NCBI RefSeq assembly: GCF_027533845.1
Contig: NZ_JAPZVN010000003.1
Location: forward strand, 248,001-312,000
Reading direction: 5' to 3'
DNA: 64,000 nt
Source: Streptomyces sp. RPT161
GTDB lineage: Bacteria > Actinomycetota > Actinomycetes > Streptomycetales > Streptomycetaceae
A program made the position numbers and the translations under genes. Within the stretch, counting starts at the first letter, position 1. Each line of letters begins with the position of its first letter. A model generated the notes under the pieces. That model was not told the origin of the DNA and made no database searches. It was given only the letters and a program-made list of their open reading frames with translations. Shown one piece after another: positions 1 to 25,201 of this stretch.

Positions 1-277
1 AGCCGTAGGCGCGCCAGCCCGCCAGCGGTACCCGGTCGAGCGCCGCTTGTATCCGCCGCCAGGGGGTCCCGGCCCAGGGCTGGTCACCGCCGAAGGTGCT
101 GCGCACACGACGTGCGTCGACGCGGATCTCCCCCAGCGGATTTCCCGCGACGTACCATCGCTGCCCGCGCTCGTACACCACGTGGTCGCCGAGCAGGCCG
201 GAGCCCACCAGCTGGGCGACGACCGCGAGCGGGTCGAACCGGCCCTCGACCAGCGCCTCCCGGTAGCTGTCTGTCAC
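1..277 (-). CDS. Salicylate synthase (MbtI/Irp9-like), N-terminal part only
   Basis: Only the first 92 residues are in the window; the gene runs off the left edge. The predicted enzyme converts chorismate to salicylate, the aryl cap of phenolate siderophores. The fragment has the N-terminal pattern of MbtI/Irp9-type enzymes: a stretch reading YERGQRWYVAG, then GEIRVDARRV, then a segment ending GWRAYG, which corresponds to the family's GWxAFE/GWRAYG stretch. The GTG start at 277 overlaps the stop of the upstream NRPS (GTGA, 274-277), so translation is coupled. The chorismate-binding catalytic half is not visible. The family call rests on a short N-terminus plus the context of an aryl-carrier-protein NRPS. 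A salicyl-AMP ligase is not in the window and would be expected further left. Confidence 0.68.
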   Translation of the reverse strand, partial: MTDSYREALVEGRFDPLAVVAQLVGSGLLGDHVVYERGQRWYVAGNPLGEIRVDARRVRSTFGGDQPWAGTPWRRIQAALDRVPLAGWRAYG

Positions 278-3200
278 GATGCCGTCTCCCTCACGGTGAT
301 CGGTGCGGCGATGAGCTCGGCGACGTGGCGCGCGTTCTGCTCCTCGATGCAGCTGAAGTGGTTGCCTTCGATGTCGGTGACCTGCATGTCCCCGATGCAG
401 ACCGCGCGCCAGAAGGCGAGGGTCGTCTCGTCCATCCCCGGTGCGAAGCCGGACGCCCCGTTCGGGCGCAGGAAGCGGATGTCACCGGCGTACGGCGCTG
501 GGGTGAACCGCGCGGACAGGAAGCTCTGCCGGAAGACACGGAACATCGCGCCGACCATCTCCGCCGGCATCTGTTGGCCCGTCGCCTCGGAGGCGGCGCG
601 GGCGTACTGAACGAATCGTTCCTCCCGGGTGTGGGCTTCGAGGCTTCGGAAGTAGGCGGCGACACGGTCCAGTTCGGGGTCACCTCCGACCTCGGCCAGG
701 GCGCCCTTGGGCACCCGTCCGTCGTGGCCCTCGACCACCTTCATGAAGGCGCGGACCATGGCGTCGGTGTCGACTTCGCCGAAGCCGGTCTGCTGCAGAG
801 AGATGTGAAGGTTGGGAATGAAGAGCATCTCGATCATCACGTCGTCCTCGACGTCGATCACCACGGGGTGGCTGCTCACCAGGATCAAGTCCTCGACCAG
901 TACGCCCCGTTCGTCCAGCCGCCGGGCCACTTCGGCGGCGAACAGGCCGCCCAGGCAGTAGCCGATCAGCTGGAAGCGGGTATGTCCCTCGGCCAGCAGT
1001 CGCTCGGCGTAGTCGTCGGCCAGCCGCTCGACCACCTCGGCCGGATCGAGCGAGGTGTAGGCCTCGGTGTCGTCGATGACGATTCCGAGCACCGGGCCGA
1101 GGTCCTGTGCGACCAGTTCCTTGGCCAGCGGCCGGAAGCAGTCCATCGTGCCGAGCCCGGCGTGGAACAGCACCCGCACCGGGCCGTCTCCACCGGTGCT
1201 GAAAGGCACCAGAACGGCGTTGCTGGAATCGGCGCGTCGCCCGGCAGGAGCGGCTGCGCGTATCTCCGGGCGTGCACGCAGGAATCGGCTCAGCGCCTCG
1301 ACGGTGGGATGGTTGAGCAGTTGGCGCAGCAGCGTGTCGAACGGTACGTCGGCGGCTTCCGGCAACTCCTCGCGCAGGCGTCCGGCCATCCTGGCCATGA
1401 TCAGGGAGTCGGCGCCGAGGTCGTAGAAGTTCTCGGTGCGGCCGATCCGGCCGACGGCCAGGGCGGCTGACCACAGCTCTGCGAGCTGGGCCTCGAAGGG
1501 GTCGGCGGGTTCGTCAGCGCGCGCCGCACGGATGCCGCCGACCGACGCGGGCCGCCAACCCTGCAGCGTACGGCGGTCGATCTTGCCGTTGCCGGTGAGC
1601 GGGAGCGCGTCGACGATCTGCAGGTGTGACGGGAGCATGTGGGACGGGAGGCGAGCGGCCAGATGGCGCAGCAGGTCCGCCTCGGTCACTGTTGCCCGGT
1701 CGGTCTTCAGGCGGGCGGCGAAGAGGTGGACGCCCTGAGGCGCGAGGGTGTGGTCGTCGGCGGGCAGGCAAAGCACGTTTTCGACGCCGGTGACCTTCGC
1801 CAGCAGTTCCAGCCACTGGTCCCGGTCGAGGTACGACGAGCCGTTCGTACGGCGGGGATCCTCGGGGGCGGTCATCATGAACGCCTGGGAGGCCAGGATC
1901 CACGGGTGTTCCCGGGTCGGCTCGGTCAGCACCAGCCACCCCCCGGGGGCGACCAGTTCGGCGAGCCGGGCGAGCGCCGCCTCGGTGTCGCGGGCGTTCT
2001 CCAGCACGCCCGCGGCCAGCACCACGTCGAAGGAGTTCGGTGCCAGACCCTGCGCGCGGTGGTCCGCGTCGACGTCGAAGACCCCGAAACGCACCCACGG
2101 ATGTGCGCCGAAGCGGTTGCGCGCCTCGGGCAGGAAGAACGGCGAGACGTCGGTGAACAGGTAGTCGGTCGCGAAGCCTTCGGCGAGCGTGGCGAGGACG
2201 CCCTCGGTGGTACCGCCGGTTCCAGCTCCCGCTTCGAGGACCCGCAGCGGGCGGCCCGCCGGGTGCTGCTCGGCGATGTGCCGGAAGAGCGAGGAGACGG
2301 CGCCGTTGAGGTAGCGGGCCATGCTGTGCTCGCGGTACAGCGCGTGGGCCGTGTCGAACTTCCCCTCGGGAAAGAGCAGTTCGACCGGGTCCTGCTCGCC
2401 GGTCAGCAAGGCGGGCAGCCGTTCGGCGTTGCGTCGCAGATAGGCGAGGAACTGCGGGGAGCCCAGCTCGTCCGTCCAGGCCGCGGAGACCTCCGCCCAG
2501 CGTTCGGCCGCCGCTTCCTCGTCGACGGGGCCGAGGTCGGCTTGCGCCAGCACCGCCCGCCAGCGCCCGACCAGCCACTCGTGGCGCGGGGCGATCGCGG
2601 CCCCCGCTGCCTCCACCTCGCGCAGCGCATGAGCCATCGAGGTGAGCACGGCCGTATCGAGTCGCTCGACATACGTCTCGACCTGTGCACGGGTCAGGCC
2701 CTCGGCGACCTCGTCCGCCAAGGCGCCCACCGGGGCGGGGACCTCGCCGCCGCTCCGGGCGGCGCGGGCGCACTCGGCCACCGCCAGCAGGCCGGTTTCG
2801 GAGCCGGAACCGTCCAGGACGACGCCCGCAGCGGCGACGGCCGGGTGCTCCAGCAGCGCGGCCTCGATCTCCCCGAGCTCGATCCGGTGGCCCCGGAGTT
2901 TGACCTGGGTGTCCTCCCGTCCGAGGAACTCGATTTCCCCGCCGGGCAGATAGCGGCCGAAGTCGCCGGTGCGGTACAGCCGTTGGCCGTCGTGCGGGTG
3001 GGTGATGAAGCGGTACGCCGTGGTCTCGTGGTCGCCGAGATAGCCCTCGGCGAGTCCCGCTCCGGAGATGTACAGCTCACCGACCGTCCAGACCGGGCAG
3101 TCGCGCAGCGCGGTGTCCAGCACTCGGAAGCCCTGGTTGGCGAGGGGTACGCCGTACGGGATGCTCCGCCAGTCCGGGGTCAGGCCGCTGTACGGGTGGT

Positions 3201-5664
3201 GGATGGACCAGATCGACGCCTCGGTGGCGCCGCCCAGGCTGATCACCCGCAGCCCGGGCAGGCGCCGGGTGATCGCGTCGGGCAGGGTGATCGGGATCCA
3301 GTCGCCGGAGAGCAGGGCAAGGCGCAGCGTGGGCAGCGCGATCCCCGGCTCGGTCTCCAGGTAGGTGGCGAGCATCTGCATCAGCGCGGGTACCGAGTTC
3401 CACACCGTCACGTCGTGCTCGGCGATCAGCGCGGCCCAGTGTGAGGGGTCGGCGCGTCGCCCGGCGTCCGGGTAGACCAGGGCGCCGCCCACCGCGAGAG
3501 GGCCGAAGATGTCGTAGACGGAGAGGTCGAAGCCGAGGTTGGCCAGACCCAGGACGCGGTCCTCACCAGTGACGCCGAAGCGGCGGTTGATGTCGGCGAT
3601 GGTGTTACCCGCGGCGCGGTGGCTGATCACCACGCCCTTGGGGCGTCCGGTGGAGCCGGAGGTGTAGATGACGTAGGCGGGTTGGTCCGGGTCGCCGCCG
3701 GTCGGCACGGTTGCCGGTGTGGTGGAGGGCAGTCGGTCCACCGCGATGATGTGCGTGCCTTCCGGCCAGTCGGCCTCCACCCAGGACTGGGTCAGCACGT
3801 GGCGTACCTCGGCGTCCGCGAGGATGGCGGCGCGGCGCAGCGGTGGCTGGACGGTGTCAACCGGCAGGTAGACGGCCTCGCAGAGCAGCGTCCCGAGTAC
3901 GGCCGTGACTTGTTCGACGCCCTTGTCCATGACGATCGCTGTGCGCTCCCCCGGCGTACAGCCGGCCGCGCGCAGAGCCTCGGCGACAGCGGTGGCCTGG
4001 CCTGCCAGTTCGCCGTAGGAGACAACGCCGTGCGGGCCGTACACCGCGGGTCGTTCCGGGGAGCGCGCCGCGTGGGCGAACACCGGCTGGTGCAGCAGGG
4101 TGTCGGGCAGGGGCGCCGCGGTGTCGTTGACTCGGCGGCGTTCCTGCTCCTGCCAGGCGGGCAGCGGGACGGACTCCCCGGCGTCCCAGGTCTCCTCGCT
4201 GGTGGCGAGGGCGCGCAGCAGCGCTTCGAAGGCGGCGTACATGTCGTCTACGACGCCTTCGGGGAAGACTCCTTCGCGGGTGTCCCAGTTGACCTGCAGT
4301 CCTTCGGTGTCGTCCATCGCCTGGCAGTCGATGAACACCTGCGGTGTCTGGGTGATGCCGAAGCCGCCCAGCCGACCGGAGACGTGGCGGCCGTCCTTGC
4401 CGTCGCCCAGACCGATGGCGCTGGTGAACACGATCGGCATGAGAGCGGCCTCGCGCCCGCGCCTGCGGGCGAGTTCACGCAGTACCTCGACTCCGGAGCA
4501 CAGCCGGTGGTCGAGGTCGTCGAAGAGCTGACCGCTGACCACCTTGGCGCGTTCGGTGAACGAGTTACCCGTGTTCCAGTCCACGGCCAGCGGGTTGACG
4601 GAGGTGAAGTCGCCGACGATCCGGTCGACGTCCGGGTGCAGCGGCAGTCGGCCCAGCACGGTGAGGTTGAGGGAGAAGCGGGACGTACGGGCCCACCGCT
4701 CGATCACGGCCGCGTAGGCGGCCAGGACGGCCGAGGACGGGGTGAGTCCGCGCCGTTGGGCACGCTGTTTGAACTGCTCCCAGGCGGAGCTGTCGAGCCT
4801 CAGGAAGCGGCGTCGGAAGCGAGGCTCCGACTGGCTGTCGGCCGTCGGCAGTTCCGGTGCGGGCGGAAGCTCGTCGATCCGGGCCCACCAGTAGTCCCTG
4901 TCGCGCTGGTAGCGGCTGCTCTCGCGCAACTGGCGTTCCGCCAGCAGGTAGTCGCGGAACCGGACACCCAGCTCAGGCAGTTCACAGGCAGGGGCCGCGT
5001 GCAGGGCCTCGAACTCGGCCAGTAGCAACCGGATGCTGGCCCAGTCCGCAATCAGGAAGTCCAAGGACAGGTGCAACACGGCGCGGTCGGGACATCGGCT
5101 GACCCGCAGGTCGAACAGCGGCCACCGGGTGGTCTCGTGCACCTGGTGGCCCAGTTCCTCCCGCACGGCGTCCAGCGCACTCTCGATCCGCTCGTTGTCC
5201 GCCTCCCGCAGGTCGGCCGCCGGAACGGACAGGTGGGGGACGCTCGGCAGGACCCTCTGGGAGCCGTCGGCCTCGATGACGGCCCGCAGCATGTCGTGGC
5301 GGTCGATGAGCCGGTTCCACGCCGCCTCGACGCGCTCCGGGTCGAGGTCGGGGTAGTTCACCTCCAGGTAGACGTGGCAGGCGACCCCGCCGTAGCCGAA
5401 GGCGTCATTGCGCCCGAGGAGGTATGCGGCCTGGACGTCGGTGAGGGGGAACGGCTCGTGTGCGGCCCGCGGTGCGGGCGTGATGACGGTCGGGGTGCTC
5501 TCGGCCCGCAGGTGTTCGATGACGGCGGACTTCGCGCTCCGCAGCGCGTCGCGCTGCTGCGGGGTGAGGGCGCCCTTGGGAGCCCGGTAGCGCAGTTCAC
5601 CGGACTCCTCCCACAACGTCACTCCGCTGCGGCGTAGTTCGGCGATCAGCTCTGCTGGGCTCAT
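274..5664 (-). CDS. NRPS, docking-Cy-A(MT)-PCP-TE, terminal Cys module (PchF-like)
   Basis: This 1796-residue protein is the last assembly-line module. An N-terminal TubC-type docking domain (1-52) is followed by a heterocyclization domain with motif DFLIADWAS (DxxxxDxxS, about 205) and an A domain (YTSGSTGRPKG about 670). The A-domain pocket reads like cysteine (FDLSVYD, VWNSVPAL, LLSGDW, LGGATEASIW). A SAM methyltransferase (EAGAGTGGT about 1145) is inserted before the final A motif (NGKID about 1360). A PCP (GADSL about 1418) and a thioesterase whose nucleophile elbow reads GYCLGG (about 1568) complete it. It should add, cyclise and methylate a third Cys and release the chain. The ATG at 5664 was chosen because the docking domain begins there; the open frame upstream is low-complexity shadow. 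The stop overlaps the salicylate synthase start. Confidence 0.93.
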   Translation of the reverse strand: MSPAELIAELRRSGVTLWEESGELRYRAPKGALTPQQRDALRSAKSAVIEHLRAESTPTVITPAPRAAHEPFPLTDVQAAYLLGRNDAFGYGGVACHVYLEVNYPDLDPERVEAAWNRLIDRHDMLRAVIEADGSQRVLPSVPHLSVPAADLREADNERIESALDAVREELGHQVHETTRWPLFDLRVSRCPDRAVLHLSLDFLIADWASIRLLLAEFEALHAAPACELPELGVRFRDYLLAERQLRESSRYQRDRDYWWARIDELPPAPELPTADSQSEPRFRRRFLRLDSSAWEQFKQRAQRRGLTPSSAVLAAYAAVIERWARTSRFSLNLTVLGRLPLHPDVDRIVGDFTSVNPLAVDWNTGNSFTERAKVVSGQLFDDLDHRLCSGVEVLRELARRRGREAALMPIVFTSAIGLGDGKDGRHVSGRLGGFGITQTPQVFIDCQAMDDTEGLQVNWDTREGVFPEGVVDDMYAAFEALLRALATSEETWDAGESVPLPAWQEQERRRVNDTAAPLPDTLLHQPVFAHAARSPERPAVYGPHGVVSYGELAGQATAVAEALRAAGCTPGERTAIVMDKGVEQVTAVLGTLLCEAVYLPVDTVQPPLRRAAILADAEVRHVLTQSWVEADWPEGTHIIAVDRLPSTTPATVPTGGDPDQPAYVIYTSGSTGRPKGVVISHRAAGNTIADINRRFGVTGEDRVLGLANLGFDLSVYDIFGPLAVGGALVYPDAGRRADPSHWAALIAEHDVTVWNSVPALMQMLATYLETEPGIALPTLRLALLSGDWIPITLPDAITRRLPGLRVISLGGATEASIWSIHHPYSGLTPDWRSIPYGVPLANQGFRVLDTALRDCPVWTVGELYISGAGLAEGYLGDHETTAYRFITHPHDGQRLYRTGDFGRYLPGGEIEFLGREDTQVKLRGHRIELGEIEAALLEHPAVAAAGVVLDGSGSETGLLAVAECARAARSGGEVPAPVGALADEVAEGLTRAQVETYVERLDTAVLTSMAHALREVEAAGAAIAPRHEWLVGRWRAVLAQADLGPVDEEAAAERWAEVSAAWTDELGSPQFLAYLRRNAERLPALLTGEQDPVELLFPEGKFDTAHALYREHSMARYLNGAVSSLFRHIAEQHPAGRPLRVLEAGAGTGGTTEGVLATLAEGFATDYLFTDVSPFFLPEARNRFGAHPWVRFGVFDVDADHRAQGLAPNSFDVVLAAGVLENARDTEAALARLAELVAPGGWLVLTEPTREHPWILASQAFMMTAPEDPRRTNGSSYLDRDQWLELLAKVTGVENVLCLPADDHTLAPQGVHLFAARLKTDRATVTEADLLRHLAARLPSHMLPSHLQIVDALPLTGNGKIDRRTLQGWRPASVGGIRAARADEPADPFEAQLAELWSAALAVGRIGRTENFYDLGADSLIMARMAGRLREELPEAADVPFDTLLRQLLNHPTVEALSRFLRARPEIRAAAPAGRRADSSNAVLVPFSTGGDGPVRVLFHAGLGTMDCFRPLAKELVAQDLGPVLGIVIDDTEAYTSLDPAEVVERLADDYAERLLAEGHTRFQLIGYCLGGLFAAEVARRLDERGVLVEDLILVSSHPVVIDVEDDVMIEMLFIPNLHISLQQTGFGEVDTDAMVRAFMKVVEGHDGRVPKGALAEVGGDPELDRVAAYFRSLEAHTREERFVQYARAASEATGQQMPAEMVGAMFRVFRQSFLSARFTPAPYAGDIRFLRPNGASGFAPGMDETTLAFWRAVCIGDMQVTDIEGNHFSCIEEQNARHVAELIAAPITVRETAS

Positions 5665-5732
5665 GCTTGTCTCGGCCTTCTGTCTGGTTGGGTCGCGGCG
5701 GAACGACGGCGGCTGAGGGGGGTCGCCATGGG

Positions 5733-6428
5733 TCATCCCTTCGGCACCGCGGCGGTGAAGGCGGCGCCGTGCAGCCTGTCGGGGTCCAGGTCGGCCTTGA
5801 GGCCGGCCAGTTCCACGCCGAGGAGCCCGGTCCGCGGCGCGGGTTCGACGGCAAGCCACCGGTCCCCGCCGATCAGCGCGTCGAAGCAGCGCCGGTCGGT
5901 ATCGGCCACCCCCATCCGGACCCGGGCGATGCCGTGAGCGCCGTTGGGGTGTACGACGTGTGCGGGGCGCTGCGGCGGGTCGTAGGCGGAGACGACGAAG
6001 GGCAGCCGGGAGGGGCGCGGGGCGAGGAACTGGTACCGGACGAGCTGGCCGTCCGGCCGGGTGCGCCGTCCCTTGACGACCCGCGAGAGGGGAACTCCCG
6101 CCGCGCGCAGCGTGGTCCGGGTCTGGTGCAGGGCCAACTCGTCCGTCTCCAAGGCGAGATCGCGCCATCCCTCGCCGGGCCGGGCCCAGCGCATGAGGCG
6201 CTCGCCCGCGCCCGGCCCGTAGGCGGCCCCGAGTGGCCACCGCAACAGGCGGAAGGCCGTGTGCAGTTGGAAGAACTCGATGAACGGCCCCTCGGCGAAC
6301 CACAGCAGCGCGTTGTGTGCCCGCGCGGGGTCGCTGCCGTACTCCACGGTGAATCCGAGTTCCGTGAAGTCCCTGACGAGGGCCCGGACGTCGTCGACCT
6401 TGTAGACGAGATGGCTGGTTCTCAGCAT
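5733..6428 (-). CDS. VOC/glyoxalase-like protein in metallophore operon
   Basis: A 231-residue protein with a glyoxalase-type N-terminus (HLVYKVDDVRALVRDF, then ELGFTVEYGS) and a second beta-rich repeat near HVVHPNGAHGIARVRMGV, as in the Glyoxalase_3-like branch of the vicinal oxygen chelate superfamily. VOC folds bind a divalent metal and catalyse isomerisation, lyase or dioxygenase steps, or act as binding or resistance proteins. The ATG at 6428 lies 7 bp inside the end of the upstream reductase-methyltransferase gene, so the two are translationally coupled, and the NRPS begins 68 bp downstream. Its role in the pathway is unknown. Tailoring, configurational editing or intracellular metal-complex binding are all possible. 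Confidence 0.75.
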   Translation of the reverse strand: MLRTSHLVYKVDDVRALVRDFTELGFTVEYGSDPARAHNALLWFAEGPFIEFFQLHTAFRLLRWPLGAAYGPGAGERLMRWARPGEGWRDLALETDELALHQTRTTLRAAGVPLSRVVKGRRTRPDGQLVRYQFLAPRPSRLPFVVSAYDPPQRPAHVVHPNGAHGIARVRMGVADTDRRCFDALIGGDRWLAVEPAPRTGLLGVELAGLKADLDPDRLHGAAFTAAVPKG

Positions 6429-8668
6429 GGTGCGGTCCTTGCGGCGAAGAGGCGCTGGCCCAGTGGTGCCAGCGGATGGTCCTCGCCGGGCAGCGTGAGC
6501 ACGTTGTCGATACCGGCGTCGCCGAGTACGTCCAGCCACTGGCGGCGCGCGAGGAAGGTGGTGCCCGAGTCGAGGCGGGTGTCTTGGGGGGCGGTCATCA
6601 TGAACGCCTGCGAGATGAGGATCTCCAGGTGCTCCCGGGCCGGTTCGGTGATCAGCAGCCAGCCGCCGGGGACCAGCAGCTCGACCAGGCCGCGGACGGT
6701 CGTGCCGGTGTCCCGCGCGTTGTTCAGTACACCGGCTGCGATGACGACGTCGGCGGAGCCCGACGCGTACCCCTGGGCGCGGGGGTCCCGGTCGATGTCG
6801 AACAGGTCGAAGTGGATCCACGGGTGCCGCGCGAAACGCTCGCGGGCCGGGGCGAGGAAGAACTTCGAGACGTCCGTGAAGAGGTAGTCGGCTCTCACGC
6901 CGCCCTCGGCCAGCGCCGCGGTCACCGCTTCGGTGGTCGCGCCCGTTCCCGCCCCGACCTCGACGATGCGCAGCGGGCCCGGCCCCGGATGCCCCGCGGC
7001 GACGGCGCGTACCGTGGCCGCGACCGCGGTGTTGAGGTATCGGGCTGTGACGGTGTCGCGGTAGACGGAGTCAGCCAGTGCCGAGCGGCCTTCGGGGAAG
7101 AGCAGGAGCGCGGCCTGCTGCTCGCCGGTCATCAGCTGGGGCAGACGTTGCGCGTTGCGCCGGAGGTAGTCGATGAATTCGGGCGGCCCCAGTCGGCCGG
7201 TCCACGATTCGGCGGCCAGGTCCCATGCTCGGCTGGTGGCGGCCTCGTCGACCATGCTGGTGGAGCGGAACACGTCGCCCTCGCGCTCGACCAGGCCGTG
7301 CTCCACCAGCTCCCGGAGCCAACGCTCGATCAGCCAGTGGTGCGCGGGTGCCACACTTCCCGCGGTGAGGATCTCCGGCATGCCGCGGCCCGACTCGTCC
7401 AGCCCCTGGGTTTGCAACGTGAGCAGCACCGAGGACAGTACGGCTTCGTCAAGGCGCTTCACGAAGGCCTCGACGTGGTCGGCGGTGACTCCGCACACCT
7501 GCGCCTCCGCGCTGGTCACCGCCTGGGCGACGACGCCGTGCAGGGTGGCGGGTGTGCGCTGCCGCCCGGTCGGGCCACGTCCTGCCCCGACAGCGGCCAC
7601 GGCGGCGGCCAGGTCGCCGACCGACACCGGCTGGTGGACCTGCTGGGGGCGCAGTGCGGGATAGCCCAGCTGCGAGGTGACGTCCTGCCACATGCGGCAC
7701 AGCGTCAGGTGATACTGGTCGGGGCGCTCGCCGCCGGGCTCCCCCAGGATGGCGGCACGCAGCGCGAGCAGGTCGCCGCCGATCGCGGCGGGCCACAGCT
7801 CACCCAACACCTGGCGGTACCCCGGCTGTTGGGACGGCCCCAGAACGGTCGTGCTCGGCTCCCCCAGATGATCCGTGCCGGGCCCCGTGAAGTCGAAGTG
7901 GTTCTTGGCCGCATCGGGGATGTGCAGGCGCGGGCTCCAGGTGACCGGGCCGTGCGTGTCGCCGAGGGTGAGCCTGCCGCCCGCCGTACCGATGGTCGCC
8001 TGGTGCAGAAGGGGCAGATGGTTGTCGGGGTCGGCGGGATCGACCTGGTTGTGTACGCGCAGGGTGAGCGGCACGCCCCCGATCTGCCCGGTCAGAACGG
8101 AGAACGGGCCGTCGGCGCCGTCCGCCACATCCACCCGCCATGGTCGTACCGCCCCCAGCGCGTCGCCGAGGATGTGGAGCAGCGGGAAGGCGACCTGCAC
8201 CGAGCAGGCCGCGTCCACGTGGACGGCCGACTGCCGGGCGAGCAAGGCGCGGGCCGCCGCCGTGAACCCACGCACGGCAGGCAACCGGGCGTACAGGTCG
8301 CCGACCCGGAAGTGGACACCCCGGCGGCGTGCCTCGCGCAGGCACGCGACCAGGTCGTCGTGGTGCACCGGCTGCTCCTGCAACACGTTGACGCCGCTGC
8401 GGATCAGACGCAGTGCCAGCTCGGTGCCCACCCCGCCCATCACCCCGGAGCGCAGGACGACGCAGGCCAGGTCGGTGCGGTCGGGCAGGTCCGCGGGGTC
8501 GGTGAACAGCGGGACGCCGTAGCGCTCGGCGCACGCGACCGAACGCCCGCTGCCCTTGGCGAGCACACCGATGACCTCGAACTCCTCCGGCAGCGCGGCG
8601 AGCGCGGACAGGTAGAACTGGCCGAACGTCGTCCCGCACACGATCACACGCAGCCTGCGACCGTTCAC
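6422..8668 (-). CDS. Thiazolinyl imine reductase fused to SAM methyltransferase
   Basis: A 748-residue two-part protein. Residues 1 to about 390 match the PchG/Irp3/YbtU family, which uses NADPH to reduce one thiazoline to a thiazolidine while the intermediate is carrier-bound: a Rossmann start (RLRVIVCGTTFGQFYL), then VLQEQPVHHDD. Residues about 395-748 are a methyltransferase closely resembling the one embedded in the downstream NRPS A domain, including the helical lead-in (YLRRNAQRLP, MTGEQ), SAM motif EVGAGTGATT (about 573), DYLFTDVS and QAFMMTAP. The GTG at 8668 overlaps the preceding stop (GTGA). Known family members are reductase only and about 350 residues, so the fusion suggests sequential reduction and N- or C-methylation. 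Confidence 0.88.
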   Translation of the reverse strand: MNGRRLRVIVCGTTFGQFYLSALAALPEEFEVIGVLAKGSGRSVACAERYGVPLFTDPADLPDRTDLACVVLRSGVMGGVGTELALRLIRSGVNVLQEQPVHHDDLVACLREARRRGVHFRVGDLYARLPAVRGFTAAARALLARQSAVHVDAACSVQVAFPLLHILGDALGAVRPWRVDVADGADGPFSVLTGQIGGVPLTLRVHNQVDPADPDNHLPLLHQATIGTAGGRLTLGDTHGPVTWSPRLHIPDAAKNHFDFTGPGTDHLGEPSTTVLGPSQQPGYRQVLGELWPAAIGGDLLALRAAILGEPGGERPDQYHLTLCRMWQDVTSQLGYPALRPQQVHQPVSVGDLAAAVAAVGAGRGPTGRQRTPATLHGVVAQAVTSAEAQVCGVTADHVEAFVKRLDEAVLSSVLLTLQTQGLDESGRGMPEILTAGSVAPAHHWLIERWLRELVEHGLVEREGDVFRSTSMVDEAATSRAWDLAAESWTGRLGPPEFIDYLRRNAQRLPQLMTGEQQAALLLFPEGRSALADSVYRDTVTARYLNTAVAATVRAVAAGHPGPGPLRIVEVGAGTGATTEAVTAALAEGGVRADYLFTDVSKFFLAPARERFARHPWIHFDLFDIDRDPRAQGYASGSADVVIAAGVLNNARDTGTTVRGLVELLVPGGWLLITEPAREHLEILISQAFMMTAPQDTRLDSGTTFLARRQWLDVLGDAGIDNVLTLPGEDHPLAPLGQRLFAARTAPC

Positions 8669-9741
8669 AGGGCTCCCTCCTCGACCACGACCAGCTGATC
8701 GATCGTTGTTTCCAGTACCGTCAGTTCGCATCTGCCGCGCAGCCGTCCGACCGTGGCCGACGGGTCAAGCGCCGTCGCGGCGTGCCGGACTCCGGCCGGT
8801 ACCTCGCCGCGCAGCACGGCCAGCGTGGCGGCGGCGGTCATGGCGCCGGTGAGCTCGGCGATGCCGGGAGCGCGAAGGACCGCCGTGCGGGTGGCCGCCT
8901 CGCCCGCCGCCGTGGTGCCGTCAAGTTGAACCAGCAAGGTCGCATACGGGGTGCGCCCGGCGGCGTCCAGCGCGGTGGCCCGGCACAGGTCGGCCGCAGC
9001 CTCGTCTGGCGGCCGCGTACGGGCGGCGTCGAGCGCGGCGCCCACGTGCTCGCCGTCCAGCACGGTGTACCAGTGGCCGTGGATGAGCGAGAGGTCACGG
9101 GCCAGTTGCTCGCCCTCCGCGTCGAGGTACGGGATCGCGCTGACCTCGCGCGGGAAGAACGGTAGGGTGACCGCCGCCTGCCGGGTCAGTGCGGCGGAGC
9201 GGCGGTTGCCGTTCCGCCAGGCGGCGAGCGGCTCGTTGTCGCCGCCTAGGACGCCGTGCAGATAGTCCTCGGCGCCGGTGCGGGTGAACCGGTCGAGGAC
9301 TCCGGCGTAGCAGGTCAGGGCTTGTACGGTGGTGAACTCCCGGGCCGCCAGCCAGCGGGGCAGCAGGCCGGACAGGCCGGGCAGGGCGCCTGCGGCGAAG
9401 ACCGCGCAGCGCCCGCCCACGTACTCCCGTACTGCGTCCCCGCCCGCGTCGACGTGGTGTGCTCCGGCCGCCAGCGCCGCACGGGCCACACGTGCGGCGG
9501 TCCGGTGCGACGGCCCGGCGCAACCCACGACCACCTCGCAGCCATGGACGAACGCCGCCAGTGAGGCGTCGTCGTCGACGTCGACCAGGGCCGTCTCGAC
9601 CGTGCCGGGCAGGGCGGCCGCAGCACGCTGAGCCGCCGTCAGGTTCCGGCCGCCGATGCGCAGCGGACCCGCGCCCCACTCGCTCAGCAGGCGGGCTGCC
9701 TGCGCACCGACCGCGCCATAGCCGCCGATGACGCCGATCAC
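8665..9741 (-). CDS. Saccharopine dehydrogenase-like NAD(P)-binding protein
   Basis: A 358-residue protein with an N-terminal dinucleotide-binding motif (GVIGGYGAVGAQAARLL) and a layout typical of the Sacchrp_dh_NADP family, with HHVDAGGDAVREYVGG and a long alpha/beta C-terminal part. Such proteins form or cleave opine C-N bonds or reduce imines and enoyl groups. The gene starts with GTG at 9741, overlapping the NRPS stop at 9738 (GTGA), and its own stop overlaps the reductase-methyltransferase start. It is therefore an integral part of the metallophore transcript. It may be a second reductase acting on a thiazoline or imine, or it may reduce the released product. The substrate cannot be read from sequence. 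Confidence 0.75.
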   Translation of the reverse strand: MIGVIGGYGAVGAQAARLLSEWGAGPLRIGGRNLTAAQRAAAALPGTVETALVDVDDDASLAAFVHGCEVVVGCAGPSHRTAARVARAALAAGAHHVDAGGDAVREYVGGRCAVFAAGALPGLSGLLPRWLAAREFTTVQALTCYAGVLDRFTRTGAEDYLHGVLGGDNEPLAAWRNGNRRSAALTRQAAVTLPFFPREVSAIPYLDAEGEQLARDLSLIHGHWYTVLDGEHVGAALDAARTRPPDEAAADLCRATALDAAGRTPYATLLVQLDGTTAAGEAATRTAVLRAPGIAELTGAMTAAATLAVLRGEVPAGVRHAATALDPSATVGRLRGRCELTVLETTIDQLVVVEEGAL

Positions 9742-12700
9742 AGGGCGCCCTCTTCCATCTCGTCCGTCGCCGCCAGTTCCTCGGCGAGAGCCGCTGTCAC
9801 CTGGGCGAGGCTCGGTCCTGCGAACAACCGCCGCAGGGGCAGTTCAACCCCGTAGCGCTGCTTCACGCGCTCGATGAGCCGGGTGGCCAGCAGGCTGTCG
9901 CCGCCCAGCTCGAAGAAGCTGCGCCTTCTGCCGACCGTTGCGCGACCGAGCAACTCGGCCCACAGCACCGCGATTTCCTGTTCCAGGCCGCCCTGCGGGG
10001 CTTCGTCCAAGTCCTCGGAGCCGTCCGCTGCGGCGAGCGCGGCGAGAGCCACGTGGTCCACCTTGCCGTTGGCGCTCAGCGGCAGCCAGGGCAGGACCTC
10101 GACGCGCTCGGGCACCATGTGCGCGGGAAGGCGCGTGGCCACGTGGGCCCGCAGCCCCACCGGGTCCAGGTCGACGGCCGCTTCAGGGCGCCGCGCCCAC
10201 AGCAACTCGATGCCGGGTGAACCCATGGGGCGGTAGCCCACCTCGCTCAGGCCGGCTCGGGACAGCAGCTCGGCCCAACGTGAGCCGGGCAGCATCGGAG
10301 AACCCGCCTTCTGGCGTTCGCGGTCGAAGCCGTAGTAGCCACGGTCGAGAAGGGACCCCGTCAGCAGGACGATGGGCGTCAACTCGGCTCGCTCGGCGGC
10401 GATCAGCGTGCCGCCGCTTCGGGCGAGCAGGGCGGCCAGCGCGGGGCCCTGAGCGGGGTCCGGGTAACGGTGCAGGGCGTTCACGGCCACCACCGCGTCG
10501 AACCGGTGCCGCAAGTCGTCGGAGATTCGGCGCAGTTGGCGGCAGGCCGTGCGATGTGGCAGCTCTTCCAGACGGCGGCTCGCCTCGGCGACCATGGTCG
10601 GGGCGGGGTCGAGCAGGGTGTAGCGCACCTGATCCGGGTCGAGGAGACCCAACAGGCGGGCCGCGGTCCGGCCGTCTCTGCCACCGAGCTCGGCGACCTC
10701 GACGGGCCTGCCCGCTTTCTCCGCCAGGTCGGCCAGGCGGCGGGCGATCTCTGAGATGACCTGGGCGGTCCCCGGGTCCTGGTCGGCGAGGCTCACCGGG
10801 GACAGAGCATCGTCGTCGAGCAGTACGGCCGGGTCGAGGCGGCCGGCGAGGATCTGCCGGTAGTCCTCCAGCCGCTCCAGCAGCCGGGCGTGGACGCGGG
10901 CGATGAGGCCGCCGTACTCGTCGGTGCCTACCTGTGGTTGGGTGCGGGTGAGTGCGGAGGGAAGGCCGGGTCCGGCACCGTATGCCCCCGCCTCTTCGAC
11001 CAGAACCTTCTGTTCGACCAGCCAGCGCAGCCACAGCCGCAGGGTCGGCAGGTGCTCGTCCGCCACGCTCAACCGCGTGGCGAAATCGTGTGGTGCTCCA
11101 TCAGCGAGCTCGTCCAGGCGGAGCAACCTGATGAGGACGGCCTCGACCGCCTCGCCCTCCTGCTGGAGCGTGCGGGCGCGCTCCGCCAGAGCGTCGGCGC
11201 TCGGCTCGGCGCCCTCGGCGTCAAACGACCGCGGCGGCGTGGCCGGGACGACGGCGGCGAGCAGTTGGCGGGCCGCGGCGTCACCGGTGACGGTGACGAC
11301 GGCGCGGCCGACACCAGGATGGCCCCCCAACGCCGCCTCGATCTCGCCCAGTTCGATCCGGTGGCCGCGTACCTTGACCTGGCGGTCGGCCCGTCCGAGG
11401 AACTCCAGCGTCCCGTCCGGCCAGTACCGGCCCAGGTCGCCCGTGCGGTACCACCGCTCACCACCGAGCTGTACAAACCGACGAGCCGTCACATCGGGCG
11501 CGCCACGGTAGCCACGGGCCACCCCCGCGCCGCCGATCCACAGCTCACCGGTCACCCAGTCCGGGCAGTCCCGTCCCAAGGTGTCCACCACCCGGTAACG
11601 CTGGTTGCGCAGCGGAAACCCGTACGGGATCGACCGCCACCCCGGCTCCACCTCGGCCACCTCGAACGCGTTGGACCAGATCGCCGCCTCGGTGGCACCG
11701 CCAAGAGCGACGAACCGGCAGTCGGGCCGCCGCGCCGCAAGCCGCCCGGGCAGATCGAGACCCACCCAGTCGCCGGAAACCAACACCAACCGCAAAGGAT
11801 CAGGAGCCTGCTCCCCCTCCGCGACCACCAACAACATGTCCAGCAACGCGGGCACCGAGTTCCACACCGTCACCCCATGACTGCGAACCAACTCCAGCCA
11901 ACGCCGGGCATCACGCCGCGACTCCTCCTCGACCAGCACCACCGCACCACCCACCGATAGCGGTCCGAACACGTCGAACACCGACAAGTCGAAATCCAGG
12001 GCGGACAACGCCAGCGTCTTGTCCTCGGAGCCGATGGCGAAGCGGGTGTTGATGTCGTCGACGGTGTTCACCGCCGCCGCATGCGTGATCTCCACACCCT
12101 TCGGCTCACCGGTCGATCCCGAAGTGAAGATCACGTACGCGAGTGCGTCCGGATCGGAGTCGACGGGCCGCGGCGCGGGCTCGGCCGAGACGATGTCGTC
12201 CATCACCAGCGGCCGAAGCGACTCCTTCCACGCCGACGCCGCCCGACCGGCCTCGTCGGTGACGACGAAGTGGACGTCGGCCAGGCGATGGATGCGATCC
12301 CGGCGCGCTGCCGGCTGGTCCGGGCCGACCGGCAGGTACGCCGCTCCGGCCGCCAGCACCCCGAGCACCGCGGCGATCTGGTCGGGCCCCTTGGGTAGCG
12401 TCACCGCGACCAACTCGCCTTGTCGCACGCCATGTTCAACGAGGAGCGCGGTCAATCGGAGTGCGCGTTCCGCGAGTTGGCCGTAGCTGAGCCGTTCCTG
12501 GTCGCCCCACCGCAGCGCGACGCGGTCAGGCCGCTCGGCGGCATGCTGGAAGAATCCCGCGTGAAGCAGCTGAGCCGGGGCCGTGGTACCAGTCGCGTTG
12601 ACCTCGGCACGAGTGTCCCGCTGGGACCCGGGGAGCAGATCCGGTACGGCCGAGTCCCAGTCACCCCAGCCAAGCCAGTCGAGCAGCCGAAGATAGGCGT

Positions 12701-15700
12701 CGAACATCGCGTCGACCAGGCCGTCCGGGAAGAGTTCCTCGACGACGTCCCAGTTGAGGTGGACACCGCCGTCGGCGGCATCCGTGACCTGGTGGTCGAG
12801 CCACACCTGCGGGGTCTGCGACACCCCCCACACGTAGTCGGTGAACAGCCCCGAGCCGGGTTCACTGCCGACGCCGAGAGCGCTGGTGAACACGACGGGC
12901 ATGGTCGTCTCGGGTTCGCCGGTGTGCCGGGCGAGTTCACGCAGTACCCAGACGGCTGACACCTCCCGGCGGTCGAGCGCTTCCCACAGCTCCTGCTGCA
13001 CGCGCCGCGCCTTTGCCAGCCAGCTCTCCCCCGGCTGCGGACGGCAGGCGACGAGCATCAGCGAGGTGAAGTCGCCCAGCACGTTGGCGATGTCCGGGTG
13101 GACGTCCTTGCGGTCGAAGAGTGTGAGGTTGAGCGTCAGGTCGGCTCTGGCGCTCCACCGGCCGAGTACCTCGGCGAAGGCGGCGAGCAGCACGGCAGAT
13201 GCGGTGAGACCGTGTTCGCGAGCCCGGTCGGTGATCGGCCGCCAGTGCGCGGCGCTGATCCGGGCCTCGCGCCGGGTGAAGCGCGGTCGGTGAACCGAGG
13301 CCGGATCCACGGCCAGCGGGAGCTGCGGCGCTGGCGGGAGGTCGGGCAGGCGTTCGGTCCAGTACTCCTGCGCGGCGGCAAGGGCGGCGGGTTCCGGAGC
13401 GGCGCCCAGCACGTAGTCACGGAAGGAGACACCCACCGGGGGAAGTTGGGCGCCCAAGTCCTCGTAGACGGCGCCGAGTTCGGTGTAGAAGGTGAGGATG
13501 CTGAGGGCGTCGAGGACGATGTTGTCCACGCCGATTCCGAGCCGGGTGCGGTTTTCCGAGCGGGCGGCACGGATCGAGAAGAGCGGCCAGCGCGCCGGGT
13601 CGAACACCTGGTGCGAGGCGGCGTTCCGCAGTTCCTCGAAGGCGGCCTCGGGCTCGGGCCCGGCCTCGGTGACGGTGACGCGGTAGCGGGGCACGTCGGG
13701 CAGGATGCGCTGCCGGCCGTGTTCGTCAACGACGGCCCGCAGCATCTCGTGCCGCCGCACCAGGCGGTCGACGGCCGCCTCAAGGCGCTCCACGTCGAGG
13801 TCCAGCACGTCGTACTCGCGGTAGAAGTGGCAGCCGACCCCGCCGAGGGTGAAGCCCTCACCCCGGCCGAGCCAGTAGGCGCGCTGGACGTCGGTGAGCG
13901 GGAACGGCTCCAGCCGGTGCTCCGGATCGGCGGCCAGGACGGGCCTGGACCGCGTGGTGTCGTCCAGCCTCAGGGTGGCGGCGAAGTCGGCGAGCACGGG
14001 GTGCCTGAAGAGCTGGGCGAGTGTGACGTCGGCGAAGCCGTCCGCGCGCAGCCGTCCGACCAGCCGTGTCGCGAGCAGGGAGTCGCCGCCGAGGGCGAAG
14101 AAGTCATGTTCGCGGCCGACTTCGGCCACTCCCAGGATCTCGGACCAGGCCGCGGCAGCACGCCGCTCGATCTGGCCGGTCGGCCGGGTGACGGACACGG
14201 CGCCCTGGACGTCGTGGTGCCCGAGCGTGCGGCGCAGGGCAGCGCGGTCGACCTTGCCGTTCGGTGTCAGTGGCAGTTCGGGCAGCAGGGCGATCCGCTC
14301 GGGCACCATCGCCGAAGGCAGTCGCTCCGCCAGGAAGGCACGGAGCCCGGTGAGGTCCGGTACCTCGGTGTCATGGTTGCGTGACCGTCCCGCGGCTATC
14401 TCGGCCAGCGCCTTCCAGTCCGGTACGGGCTCGGGCGACGCGTCCGTGACAGCGGCGGCCAGTCCGCCGTCCTCGCAGACGACCGCGATGCCCTGGCCGA
14501 CACCGGGAAAGTCCCGCAACGCGGCTTCGACTTCGCCGAGTTCGATCCGGTGGCCGCGCACCTTGACCTGACGGTCGGCCCGGCCGAGGAACTCCAACGT
14601 TCCATCAGGCCAGTAGCGGCCCAGGTCCCCCGTCCGGTACCAGCGCTCGCCTCCGGCCTCGACGAACCGATCCGCCGTTAGTTCAGGCGCACTGCGGTAG
14701 CCACGGGCAACCCCCGCGCCACCGATCCACAACTCACCCGTAACCCAGTCCGGGCAGTCACGCCCCGACGCGTCCACCACCCGGTAGCGCTGGTTCCGCA
14801 ACGGACACCCGTACGGGACGGAACGCCATGCCGGATCCACCTCGGCGACCTCGAACGCGTTCGACCAGATCGCCGCCTCCGTTGCCCCACCCAACGCGAT
14901 GAACCGGCACCCCGGCCGCAACACCGCAAGCCGCCCCGGCAGATCAAGCCCCACCCAGTCACCAGAGACCAACACCAACCGCAGCGGCTCGGGAGGCGCT
15001 TCGCCCTCCGCCACGATCAGCAACATCTCCAGCAGCGCCGGAACGGTGTTCCACACTGTCACCCCGTGACGCCGGACCAGTTCCAGCCAACGTCCGGCGT
15101 CTCGGCGTGCCTCCTCCTCGATCAACACCACCGTCCCACCGACCGACAAAGGTCCGAAGACGTCGAACACCGACAGATCGAAGTCCAGTGCTGACAGCGC
15201 AAGGGTGCGATCCTCAGGTCCGATGGCGAAGCGCTCGTTGATGTCGTCAACGGTGTTCATCGCCGCCGCATGCGTTATCTCCACGCCCTTGGGCTCACCG
15301 GTCGAGCCCGAGGTGTAGATCACGTAGGCGAGGTCAGCGGGGTCCCCGGGCACGGGTTCGAGCAGTGGCGTGACGCCCTCCGGTACGGCGAGGTCGTCGA
15401 GGACGAGCCGCACTCCGGCGGTGCGGTGGATGCGTTCGCGCCGCAACTCGGGCTGGTCGGCGCCGAGCGGCAGGTAGGCCGCACCGGCGGCGAGTACCCC
15501 CAGGACCGCCGTGATCTGCTCCGGCCCCTTGGGCAGGGTGACCGTGACCAGGTCTCCGGGACCGACGCCCTGGGACCTCAGATGGGCGGCGAGGGCGAGT
15601 GCCCGTCCGGCCAACTCTCCGTAGCTGAGCGAGCGGTCCAGGCCCCAACTCAGTGCGACCGCCCGGGGGTTGCGGGCGGCGTACGCGAAGAAGCCGTCAT

Positions 15701-20043: not shown

Positions 20044-22521
20044 TCAGGGTTGATCAGTGATTCCTGCCGGGGCGGGACGTGCCATCGGCAAGGACGGTAC
20101 GGCGGCCAGGAGTTCGGCGGTCACCGGATCGGTCGGTGCGCTGAGCAGCCGGTCGGTCGGGCCGCTCTCCCTGATCCGGCCGTCGGCGAGCACCGCGAGC
20201 TGTCCGCCGAGCCGTGCGGGCACGGTGAGGTCGTGGGTGACAACGACCAGGGCGACGCCCAGTTCCCGCCGCAGCCCAGCCAGCAGGGCGATCACGGTGT
20301 CGGCGGTCGGCGCGTCGAGGGCGCTGGTCACCTCGTCGCACAGCAGCACCGCGGGTTCGACCGCCAACGCCCTCGCCAGTGCCACTCGTTGGCGCTGCCC
20401 GCCCGACAGGTGCTCCGGGCGGCGGTCGGCGTGCTCGGCTGCCAGCCCGACCCGTTCCAGCAGCTGGTGAACCTCGCGCCACAGCGCTTCCGCGTGCAGC
20501 TCGGGACGGTACTGACTGAGCGGGCGAGCGATGATCCGGCCGACGGTGTGGCGCGGGTTGAGCGAGTCGTGCGGGTCCTGCGGAACGAGTTGCAGCATCC
20601 GCAGCCGATCGCGGGACCGTCCGCGCAGTCCGTGCGGCACCTCGGCACCGGCCAGGCGCAGATCGCCCGACCAGTCGGGGTGCAGACCGGTGAGGCAGCG
20701 CAACAAGGTGGTCTTGCCGCCGCCCGAGGGGCCGACCACGCTGAGGCAACCGCCGGGATCGACGGACAGGTCGATGGCGGTCAGCACGCGCCGGGTACCG
20801 CGCCGGGCCTCCAGCCCGCGCAGGACCAGAGCGGGCGTGTCTGCCTGGTTCGCCACCTCGCGCGGTCCGGGCAGTGCGGTCATCCGGGCGGCGTCGACCA
20901 GCCGACGGGCGGTGGCGCTCGCAGGGCGGGCGAGTACCTCCGCCACCGGACCGCGCTCCACCAGGCGTCCCGCGTCGAGGACGGCCACTTCGTCGGCCAC
21001 CGAGGCGACCTGGGCCAGGTCGTGCGCGACCAGCAGGATGGCCGGGCCGCCGTCCTCGCGCAGCCGTTTGATGTCGGCGAGCAGTGCCGCCGCGGTGGCC
21101 GGGTCCAGGGCGCTGGTGGGTTCGTCGAGCACCAGCAGGTCAGGCCTGTGGGCGAGCGCGGCGGCCAGCGCGACCCGCTGGCGCTGGCCGCCGGAGAGCT
21201 GGTGCGGAAAGCGGCGCAGAAAGGCGTCGTCGCACGGGAGTTGGACCGCCCGCAATGCGGACCGGATCCGCACGGGCCGTTGCGCGCGGGGCACCGAGCG
21301 GGCTCTCAGGAACTCCCCGATGTGGTCGCCCACCCGCATCGTGGGAGCGAGCGAGGTGCGCGGATCCTGCGGGACATAACCAGCGTGGCGGCTGCGCAGC
21401 CGCCGAAGCGCCCGCTCGGTCAGCCCGAGAACCGGGAGCCCGCCCAGGTGCACCTCGCCTTGCCGCAACTCCAGTCCCGGGCTCAGTTCTCCGAGGGCGG
21501 CCAGCGCCAGCGTGGTCTTCCCACTCCCCGACGGCCCGACCAGCGCGAGGACTCGGCCCGGGGCAAGTTCGAGGTCGACGCCGTCGACGACGGAACGTCT
21601 ACCGGACGGCCCGTCTGCCTCCACGGTCAGACCGCGCAGCCGCAGCACCGGGGCACCTGCGACGGTATCCGCCGTCACGGCCACCGGCCGCCGGCGGGTC
21701 CGCGGCTGGCGGGCGGCGGGGAAGACCGCGTCCACGAGCAGGTTGGCGGCCAGCAGCAGCACGAGGATGCCGACGGCGGGCACGGCCACCGCCAGGGGTT
21801 GCAGCGACAGCCCGTCCCGGTTCTCAAGGACCATCAACCCCCAGTCCGCGGCCGGGGGTTGAGCCCCGTAACCGAGGAATCCCGCCGTTGAGACGACGAA
21901 CACCGCTCCCACGAAGCGCACGGCGGCATCGGCCGCGAGCACCGGCGCGAGATTGGGCAGCACCTCACGCAGCAGGACGTACGCCGTGCGCTCACCGCGC
22001 GCGACCGCGGCCTCCACGTAGTCATGCTGGAGGGCCTGCAAGGTGGTGGCTCGTACCACCCTGACGATCTCCGGCAGCAGGACCACGGCGGTGGCGGCTC
22101 CGACCCCGGCCACTCCACGGCCCAGAGCCACCACGGTAAGGCTGAGCAGCAGGAACGCGGGCAGGCTCAACAACACGTCGGCCACACGCAGCACCACCGC
22201 GTCGATCCGGCCGCCGCGCAGCGCCGCCAGCATGCCAGCCGACGCGCCCAGCGCGTACGCGGCGGCGAGCGCCGCCAGCGAGAGCAGCACCAGTGTCCGG
22301 CCGCCGGCCAGGAACCGGCTGAGCACGTCGGCGCCGAGATGGTCCGTGCCCAGCGGGGTCGATCCGCCTGCCGGACCGTACGGCATGTCCAGCACCTCGC
22401 CCGTCCCGTGCGGGGCGAGCAACGGCCCGAGCAGGGCGAGCAGCACGGCTGCCGCCAGCACGGCACCCGCCACGATGGCACGCAGCTTTCCGCGGTCGCG
22501 GACCGGGGCGGCCTTGTCCAT
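20044..22521 (-). CDS. ABC transporter triple fusion: permease-ATPase-ATPase
   Basis: One continuous 825-residue frame combines three functions normally encoded separately in the Dpp/Opp/Nik family. Residues 1 to about 285 are a DppC/NikC-type permease (PLGTDHLGADVLSR, then the EAA loop around VEAAVARGERTAYVLLREVLPN). Residues about 295-545 are a first ATPase (Walker A GPSGSGKTT about 333, LSGGQRQR, LLVLDEPTSALD). Residues about 560-815 are a second ATPase (GPSGGGKTT about 597, LSGGQRQR, VLLCDEVTSALD). The ATG at 22521 lies two bases after the stop of the partner permease. With the binding protein and permease upstream it would import the metal-metallophore complex or a peptide-like or nickel-type ligand. 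Confidence 0.92.
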   Translation of the reverse strand: MDKAAPVRDRGKLRAIVAGAVLAAAVLLALLGPLLAPHGTGEVLDMPYGPAGGSTPLGTDHLGADVLSRFLAGGRTLVLLSLAALAAAYALGASAGMLAALRGGRIDAVVLRVADVLLSLPAFLLLSLTVVALGRGVAGVGAATAVVLLPEIVRVVRATTLQALQHDYVEAAVARGERTAYVLLREVLPNLAPVLAADAAVRFVGAVFVVSTAGFLGYGAQPPAADWGLMVLENRDGLSLQPLAVAVPAVGILVLLLAANLLVDAVFPAARQPRTRRRPVAVTADTVAGAPVLRLRGLTVEADGPSGRRSVVDGVDLELAPGRVLALVGPSGSGKTTLALAALGELSPGLELRQGEVHLGGLPVLGLTERALRRLRSRHAGYVPQDPRTSLAPTMRVGDHIGEFLRARSVPRAQRPVRIRSALRAVQLPCDDAFLRRFPHQLSGGQRQRVALAAALAHRPDLLVLDEPTSALDPATAAALLADIKRLREDGGPAILLVAHDLAQVASVADEVAVLDAGRLVERGPVAEVLARPASATARRLVDAARMTALPGPREVANQADTPALVLRGLEARRGTRRVLTAIDLSVDPGGCLSVVGPSGGGKTTLLRCLTGLHPDWSGDLRLAGAEVPHGLRGRSRDRLRMLQLVPQDPHDSLNPRHTVGRIIARPLSQYRPELHAEALWREVHQLLERVGLAAEHADRRPEHLSGGQRQRVALARALAVEPAVLLCDEVTSALDAPTADTVIALLAGLRRELGVALVVVTHDLTVPARLGGQLAVLADGRIRESGPTDRLLSAPTDPVTAELLAAVPSLPMARPAPAGITDQP

Positions 22522-22523
22522 GC

Positions 22524-25078: not shown

Positions 25079-25171
25079 AGAGTCCTCACTCGAAGCGGGC
25101 GGGAGGCAGGGGCCGACCACGGTGACGCCCGTCACGACTTCGGGCGGGTGCGCCGCACGCTGGCGATGACC

Positions 25172-25201
25172 ACCCTAGAGTAAAACGATAACGCTTTTCA
25201 A
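25172..25201 (-). promoter_or_regulatory. Uptake-operon promoter with weak Zur-like box
   Basis: Reading the minus strand, TTGAAA (25196-25201) and TAGGGT (25172-25177) are separated by 18 bp and form a good vegetative promoter about 95-120 bp before the GTG. The 15-mer CGATAACGCTTTTCA (25186-25200, plus strand) matches the Zur consensus at 11 of 15 positions and overlaps the -35 region. The operator call is tentative, the promoter call firmer. The remaining sequence to 25431 shows nothing else. Confidence 0.4.

Follow-up and report, generated by a model that had tools for sequence, protein, structure and literature searches.

Tailoring domains embedded in nonribosomal peptide synthetases (NRPSs) are usually regarded as fixed parts of their modules, and the locus described here raises the question of whether such a domain can leave its synthetase and be put to use elsewhere. 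In Streptomyces sp. RPT161, a thiazolinyl imine reductase and a methyltransferase (MT) resembling those embedded in NRPSs are encoded by a single gene, at 6422..8668 on the (-) strand of a 64,000-nucleotide stretch of contig NZ_JAPZVN010000003.1 (positions 248,001 to 312,000). This whole stretch is termed the window, and coordinates refer to it unless another locus is named. The chemistry and both domain families are already known. We consider it probable, though well short of assured, that the product is a bifunctional, trans-acting enzyme for thiazoline reduction followed by N-methylation, and that its MT left an NRPS, joined the reductase, and spread.

A reductase and a methyltransferase in one reading frame

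An open reading frame (ORF) at 6422-8731 (-), 769 aa long, matches in profile searches both the thiazolinyl imide reductase family TIGR01761 (303.1 bits against a curated cut-off of 188.8; residues 28-359 of this ORF) and Pfam Methyltransf_12 (E 2.8e-15; residues 590-692), and the fusion of the two enzymes within one gene, claimed in a preliminary description made from the DNA letters and their ORFs, is borne out. The likely start of the gene is the GTG at 8668, because it closely follows a GGAGG-like site and shares bases with the stop codon of the preceding gene, which encodes a saccharopine-dehydrogenase-like (SDH-like) oxidoreductase. From this start the protein has 748 aa (748 codons plus the stop), and its stop codon (6424-6422) overlaps the ATG (6428) of the next gene, which encodes a VOC protein.

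The N-terminal part (7634..8668 (-), approximately aa 1-345), delimited by TIGR01761, phmmer, and Foldseek, is the thiazolinyl imine reductase, with the fold of Irp3/YbtU. It matches 4GMF (phmmer, E 5e-42), and Foldseek aligns it with Irp3 (5KVQ; E 3.1e-29, TMt 0.85), so the Irp3 fold is present. The likeness to Irp3/YbtU and PchG (TIGR01761) extends over the whole reductase half, in profile, fold, and the residues Glu98, His102, and Tyr126 (25/25, 23/25, and 24/25 fused rows, respectively); Irp3 and PchG are stand-alone proteins, whereas the window reductase continues in frame into the MT. A linker (7529..7633 (-), approximately aa 346-380), recognized by its low model confidence, its variability in the alignment of fused proteins, and its dN/dS, leads into the MT half. 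This half comprises a helical lead-in (6974..7528 (-), approximately aa 381-565), delimited by its identity to the lead-in of the MT embedded in the cluster's terminal NRPS, and a Rossmann core (6425..6973 (-), aa 566-748), delimited by Methyltransf_12, motif I, and the CurJ fold. Together the N-terminal helical domain and the class I core make up the complete CurJ fold (Foldseek, CurJ C-methyltransferase 5THY; E 3.2e-26, TMt 0.86), and motif I, VEVGAGTG, is an intact S-adenosylmethionine (SAM) motif.

The reductase and MT halves are conserved together in 25 fused sequences, and comparison with the Streptantibioticus ferralitis orthologue gives a dN/dS of 0.23 for the reductase, 0.42 for the MT, and 0.77 for the linker. 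An AlphaFold2 model built from the alignment of the 25 sequences has a mean predicted local distance difference test score (pLDDT) of 88, falling below 50 at linker residues 361-373, and a predicted TM score (pTM) of 0.55; given this linker and this pTM, each half is modeled with confidence and their mutual placement is not.

In the proposed mechanism, the fusion would work in trans on the three-cysteine metallophore NRPS of its cluster. The N-terminal half would use NADPH to reduce a carrier-bound thiazoline to the thiazolidine, in the manner of Irp3 and PchG, and the C-terminal half would then methylate the ring nitrogen, the secondary amine just exposed by the reduction, as the MT embedded in PchF does in pyochelin biosynthesis. 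The substrate is inferred, and coupled reduction and methylation is the most economical reading. The two halves might instead serve separate modules or work at separate times, with the fusion only bringing both catalysts to the carrier protein; the lack of a confident mutual placement would allow this, as would the occurrence of MT and reductase as separate genes in Pseudonocardiaceae and Kribbella, and the two reducible rings that three cysteine modules would presumably yield. Such uncoupled action deserves attention but is unlikely, since retention of the fusion in distant phyla suggests a benefit of joining.

Active-site residues and the probable site of methylation

A His-Glu catalytic dyad has been described for C-methyltransferases (PMC9821293, available in part), and His occupies the first column of this dyad in five solved relatives with alignments shown, of seven listed. 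The window fusion departs from it: Asn649 (codon 6722..6724 (-), placed by alignments) stands at the His column, and the Glu is kept. Asn is found in 22 of 23 fused rows, with Asp in the remaining one, and the Glu of the second column is retained in 23/23; three later fusions (L178, L179, and L181) also carry Asn. The six stand-alone MTs that group with the fused ones (clade B, below) likewise have Asn (6/6), and two other stand-alone rows have His. Embedded MTs of terminal NRPSs are mixed (60 rows: 27 Glu, 22 His, 5 Asp, 5 Ala, and 1 Asn), while 21 of the 24 embedded rows whose ORF shows no thioesterase (TE) have His. A set of 22 further rows comprises three fused with Asn, two embedded with Glu, 14 with His, two with Asp, and one that is cut. 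The presence of Asn in place of the C-methyltransferase His supports N-methylation by the fused MT; the tree does not decide the matter.

It is improbable that the MT half acts as a C-methyltransferase on a ring carbon, as has been predicted for the terminal MT of mupirochelin (PMC10080011, available in part). The fold is that of the C-methyltransferases of polyketide synthases (PKSs), with CurJ the best match, and the conserved Glu would fit such a role; against this stand the replacement of His, which is kept in 21/24 embedded rows without visible TE and 22/60 terminal rows, and the reductase partner, which would supply a secondary amine and no acidic carbon. CurJ-type enzymes share the fold, including the N-terminal helical domain, but have the catalytic His that the window fused MT lacks, and no PKS was found among the cluster genes scanned. 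A catalytically silent MT half, serving as a carrier-protein docking domain, is very improbable. Inserts without SAM chemistry do exist, both in this cluster (A2 insert) and in PchE (PMC8807600, available in part), but E570, G572, G574, T575, G576, and D599 of the MT half are invariant in the 25 fused sequences, and its dN/dS lies below 1.

The MT of PchF shares the lead-in and the Rossmann core with the fused MT; it is embedded in an NRPS A (adenylation) domain and acts in cis, whereas the window MT is fused to a reductase. PchF is reportedly the N-methyltransferase of pyochelin, a finding credited to Patel and Walsh in 2001. Two Burkholderia PchF-like proteins were compared, one from a pyochelin-type operon of B. 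cenocepacia (L177) with PchE-, PchF-, and PchG-like genes, the PchE-like frame of which looks broken in this record, and one from a matching stretch of B. arboris (L180), where only the MT was examined. The ORFs that come next in L177 correspond in size and order to pchH, pchI, and fptA. Both PchF-like MTs read GALNNARD where the window fusion reads GVLNNARD, which places Asn at the His column in all three.

Kinship of the methyltransferase and spread of the fusion

The preliminary description had also stated that the MT half is homologous over its whole length, lead-in included, to the MT of the terminal NRPS, and this holds: the Rossmann cores are 61% identical (216 bits), and the lead-ins alone 41% identical over 174 alignment columns (122 bits, against a best of 28.5 bits in 200 shuffles). 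For this comparison the terminal NRPS was taken as window 274-6303. The MT-fold insert of the first NRPS is only 22% alike (45 bits). Because the helical lead-in is also present in PKS C-methyltransferases (e.g., CurJ), it marks the CurJ-fold family at large and is no pointer to NRPSs by itself; its use as proof of NRPS origin was dropped.

Phylogeny was analyzed with unrooted trees restricted to MT domains of at least 170 bits and about 290 profile positions, with identical sequences entered once; these cut-offs kept the epimerase-like inserts and two embedded remnants out. One tree holds 103 of 117 domains, 14 rows from ten near-identical loci having been left out by hand; a second, of 56 rows, was picked by hand, and a third, of 70 rows, consists of those 56 plus 14. 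Fusion L181 is in no tree, and L178 and L179 are only in the 70-row tree. In the 103-row tree, all 25 fused MTs and six stand-alone MTs form clade B (support 100/99; 24 fused MTs in the 56-row tree), which spans Actinomycetota, Bacillota, Pseudomonadota, Bacteroidota, and one Aerophobetes metagenome-assembled genome (MAG). Most embedded MTs from terminal NRPSs of such clusters form clade A (29 rows; support 100/99). Clade C consists of all other rows, almost every one of them an embedded MT. The nearest kin of the window fused MT are the fused MTs of a congener, Streptomyces, Kitasatospora, and Alkalilimnicola, and the fused MT does not fall far from NRPS-embedded MTs, so the distant placement named in the preliminary description as a refutation does not apply. 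In the 70-row tree, PchF joins clade B (support 97/98).

Grouping the two window MTs as one clade lowers the log-likelihood by 184 and is rejected by the approximately unbiased (AU) test (p-AU 7.7e-48). By plain identity (53%), 11 of 23 other fused MTs are more alike to the window fused MT than its embedded neighbor is, and 12 of 23 are less so, a weaker contrast; by tree path, 14/23 are nearer than the neighbor and 9/23 farther. A recent local copy, in which the MT of this terminal NRPS was duplicated and joined to the reductase, can be dismissed with near certainty. In its favor is the 53-54% identity of the two window MTs, lead-in included, which is a little above the 44-51% that the window fused MT shares with the listed embedded MTs of other genomes; against it, besides the AU test, the trees put the window fused MT with fused sequences from several phyla and its neighbor with embedded ones. 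Local duplication is ruled out by tree and AU test under the model used, though not by plain identity. By this phylogeny, the MT half belongs to the family of NRPS-embedded MTs and was not copied from the NRPS of this cluster; the earlier idea of an escaped NRPS tailoring domain survives as kinship and fails as to the terminal NRPS as its source. Separately, in Sporomusa sp. KB1 (L086:9986-13485) the fused MT has a second, stand-alone copy directly behind it, its sister in the tree (99/95), and the terminal NRPS lacks an MT.

The fusion is rare overall yet widely scattered. The reductase family occurs at 36 places in 34/391 genomes of an order sample (E up to 1e-25), and inspection of these places found three intact fusions (own genome counted) and one more with the halves in different frames. 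It occurs in 22/394 genomes of a class sample (23 places, three shared with the order sample), where only the window's own copy is fused, and in 2/388 genomes of a Bacillota sample, both with fusions, one being the centre genome chosen for having it. A Gammaproteobacteria sample, drawn for PchF references, had the reductase in 1/369 genomes, the centre genome only. A broad scan of 84,980 genomes, one per species, was seeded with two peptide words from the reductase half and confirmed 89 places, of which 80 were kept (79 loci); being word-led, with 80 of 89 places kept, it is a sample and no census. Both halves are covered in 23 of these loci, in one frame in 22 and broken in L091. The hosts are Streptomycetaceae, Alkalilimnicola, Citrobacter, Pluralibacter, Pelosinus, Sporomusa, Paenibacillus, Cohnella, Clostridium beijerinckii, a Lachnospiraceae MAG, a Halothermothrix MAG, Aquimarina, and an Aerophobetes MAG. 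Because the fusion occurs in several bacterial phyla, it is, on this distribution, an old, mobile design and not a local accident. C. beijerinckii is an AT-rich organism, and the single frame is open in such hosts, so the fusion is no artefact of GC-rich DNA.

Some individual loci are recorded alongside this survey. In L091 (1482-1550) and L187, which probably represent one genome, the reading frame is broken within the linker, leaving reductase and MT in different frames; the cause is a sequencing error or else a natural split. A Klebsiella pneumoniae plasmid, pINF237_01-VP (CP032834.1, L178), typed as mobilizable, has at 11971-14220 a full-length fusion annotated only as "methyltransferase," alongside both NRPSs, the SDH-like gene, and the VOC gene. 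In L102, where the cluster is already equipped with an embedded MT and a stand-alone reductase, there is a second, divergent reductase-MT fusion (9983-12199).

A reductase tree of 125 rows was made by a quick method with SH-aLRT support only (L001-L003, the same ten near-identical loci, and identical and short rows omitted). It places all 25 fused rows inside one 53-row clade (SH-aLRT 100), so that the architecture is common in its own reductase branch (25/53 rows), where the preliminary description had considered that a common design of known function would tell against it; no function-tested member was found. An inner group of this clade has 46 rows (SH-aLRT 91), with seven rows outside. Five of the seven, from Kribbella and four Pseudonocardiaceae, each carry a free-standing MT gene on the opposite strand, located between the reductase and VOC genes (5/5). 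The other two, from Micromonospora and Actinopolymorpha, have an embedded MT, and the stretches seen contain no stand-alone MT of the fused kind, only a distant MT-like ORF (38 and 42 bits). This layout suits the order embedded, free, fused: the MT would have left the synthetase long ago, become a free-standing gene beside the reductase (surviving in some Actinomycetota), and then joined the reductase. Tests on the MT tree gave p 0.108 for five stand-alone MTs as one clade and p 0.446 for a fused-only clade, with which this tree cannot settle the order of the stand-alone and fused stages. Some stand-alone reductases are nested among the fused ones (Sporomusa ovata L101, with others from Bacillota and Fibrobacter), which suggests a later loss of the MT half. 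Elsewhere, several loci (L124, L126-L132, and L135, from a Lachnospiraceae MAG, Finegoldia, Anaerococcus, and others) have two stand-alone reductases per stretch, which suggests a separate reductase per ring.

The metallophore cluster and the meaning of the fusion

The fusion gene lies between two NRPS genes, all on the (-) strand. The terminal NRPS (274..5664, from the Met before the docking domain; profile searches) consists of a TubC-type docking domain, a heterocyclization (Cy) domain, A3 with its embedded MT, a peptidyl carrier protein (PCP), and a TE; the embedded MT (1711..2718; tree and alignment) belongs to clade A. The first NRPS (9738..17387; profile searches) has a carrier domain, Cy-A1, Cy-A2 with an insert, and a PCP. 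The MT-fold insert in A2 (10200..11192; alignment) has lost its SAM motif (motif I is AELGGRDG) and still has His at the catalytic column, matching by analogy the epimerase type of PchE, where SAM chemistry is lost and H1204/E1234 are named (PMC8807600). Between the synthetases are the SDH-like gene (8665..9741), in the position of SrbE/MchE, and the VOC/Glyoxalase_3 gene (5733..6428), in the position of SrbJ/MchJ, both identified by profile search. At and left of the window edge, the genes are one resembling salicylate synthase (chorismate binding), one for an AMP ligase, and two for exporter-type ATP-binding cassette proteins. All three A domains presumably are of cysteine type, as read by eye against a specificity code. 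With salicylate synthase, aryl-AMP ligase, multi-Cys Cy-NRPS, SDH-like protein, reductase, and VOC protein present, this is, as judged from its genes, a three-cysteine, salicylate-primed metallophore cluster of the sorangibactin/mupirochelin kind. A CYP105N1/SrbH-like P450 was not found among the ORFs scanned, a subset of all ORFs. Beside the cluster (20044-26721) are a fused permease-ATPase, a family-5 solute-binding protein (oligopeptide/nickel type), and a NicT nickel transporter; the metal may be other than iron.

Sorangibactin (SrbE/F/G/I/J) and mupirochelin (MchE/F/G/I/J) biosynthesis is alike in the SDH-like protein, the reductase, the VOC protein, and the salicylate-primed, multi-module heterocyclizing NRPS, with reductase and MTs as separate genes (PMC10127202, PMC10080011, each available in part). 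Since the SDH-like, fusion, and VOC genes of the window overlap, there is no separate MT gene between them, unlike in those two clusters. For sorangibactin, which contains N-methylthiazolidines, deletion of srbE/F/G (F and G being the separate MTs) or of srbI (the reductase) is reported to abolish the product (PMC10127202).

A terminal NRPS is visible in 24/25 fused rows (not seen in L088). Its embedded MT is intact in 16, reduced to a remnant of about 130 residues in two (L085 and L095), and absent in six (L080, L084, L086, L087, L089, and L090). The fusion would have spread across phyla together with its cluster, with the embedded terminal MT gone or decayed in several of them. As a guess, module 2, in which the insert is an epimerase-like pseudo-MT, may be served by the fused MT, and module 3 by the embedded one; where the embedded MT is missing, the fusion might serve both. 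A count rule, in which MTs equal A domains minus one, was abandoned, being broken by Citrobacter (L089), Pseudonocardiaceae, and Sporomusa KB1 (L086), with short flanks. Two further arrangements were seen: in five Fibrobacter MAGs (L117-L121) the terminal NRPS ORF has two MT domains in all five loci, and a Kitasatospora linear plasmid (L189:9332-11113) encodes a 593-aa "methyltransferase" whose MT is of this kind; it has Gly at the key column, an apparent A-domain remnant preceding the MT (by eye; Pfam finds only the MT), and annotated neighbors that include no NRPS.

Several observations weigh against the proposed role or its history. This cluster's embedded MT, which carries Glu in place of the His, might perform the N-methylation jointly or by itself; the single Asn among terminal embedded MTs (L102) lies outside the fused clade; and motif I of fusion L181 is altered (LELGGGTA). 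Grouping PchF with clade A is as good as with clade B (p-AU 0.51), so a single residue and a long branch carry the link to an N-methyltransferase. The branches behind the order embedded, free, fused are weakly supported. In stand-alone-reductase clusters L111, L112, and L115 the terminal NRPS has no MT and none of the fused kind lies beside the reductase; a missing embedded MT alone is therefore no proof of replacement by another enzyme. A related cluster from Pantoea has a small stand-alone MT that the MT profile misses, so SrbF/SrbG may not be kin and offer an analogy of position only; their treatment as proven kin was dropped.

The same architecture is found on an Anaerococcus prevotii plasmid (WP_012797117.1), 27% identical to the window fusion and named in RefSeq "bifunctional Gfo/Idh/MocA family oxidoreductase/class I SAM-dependent methyltransferase," an automatic NCBI name only. 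No study of the fusion was found in the literature on thiazolinyl imine reductases, related siderophores, PchF, and trans MTs, with subscription papers thinly covered. A sentence in the equibactin paper attributes a methyltransferase module to these reductases; it concerns the yersiniabactin and pyochelin enzymes and reports no fusion (PMC3672683).

One MT family is thus seen embedded, lost or decayed, free-standing, and fused to an upstream enzyme in otherwise alike clusters, a variety that makes domain mobility in assembly lines testable. More tentatively, a single trans-acting polypeptide may perform reductive N-methylation on more than one carrier protein, and may have replaced the cis MT in several lineages and crossed phyla. 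The fusion may offer a ready-made trans tool for N-methylthiazolidines, and this methyl group could escape structure predictions in which only embedded MT domains are counted.

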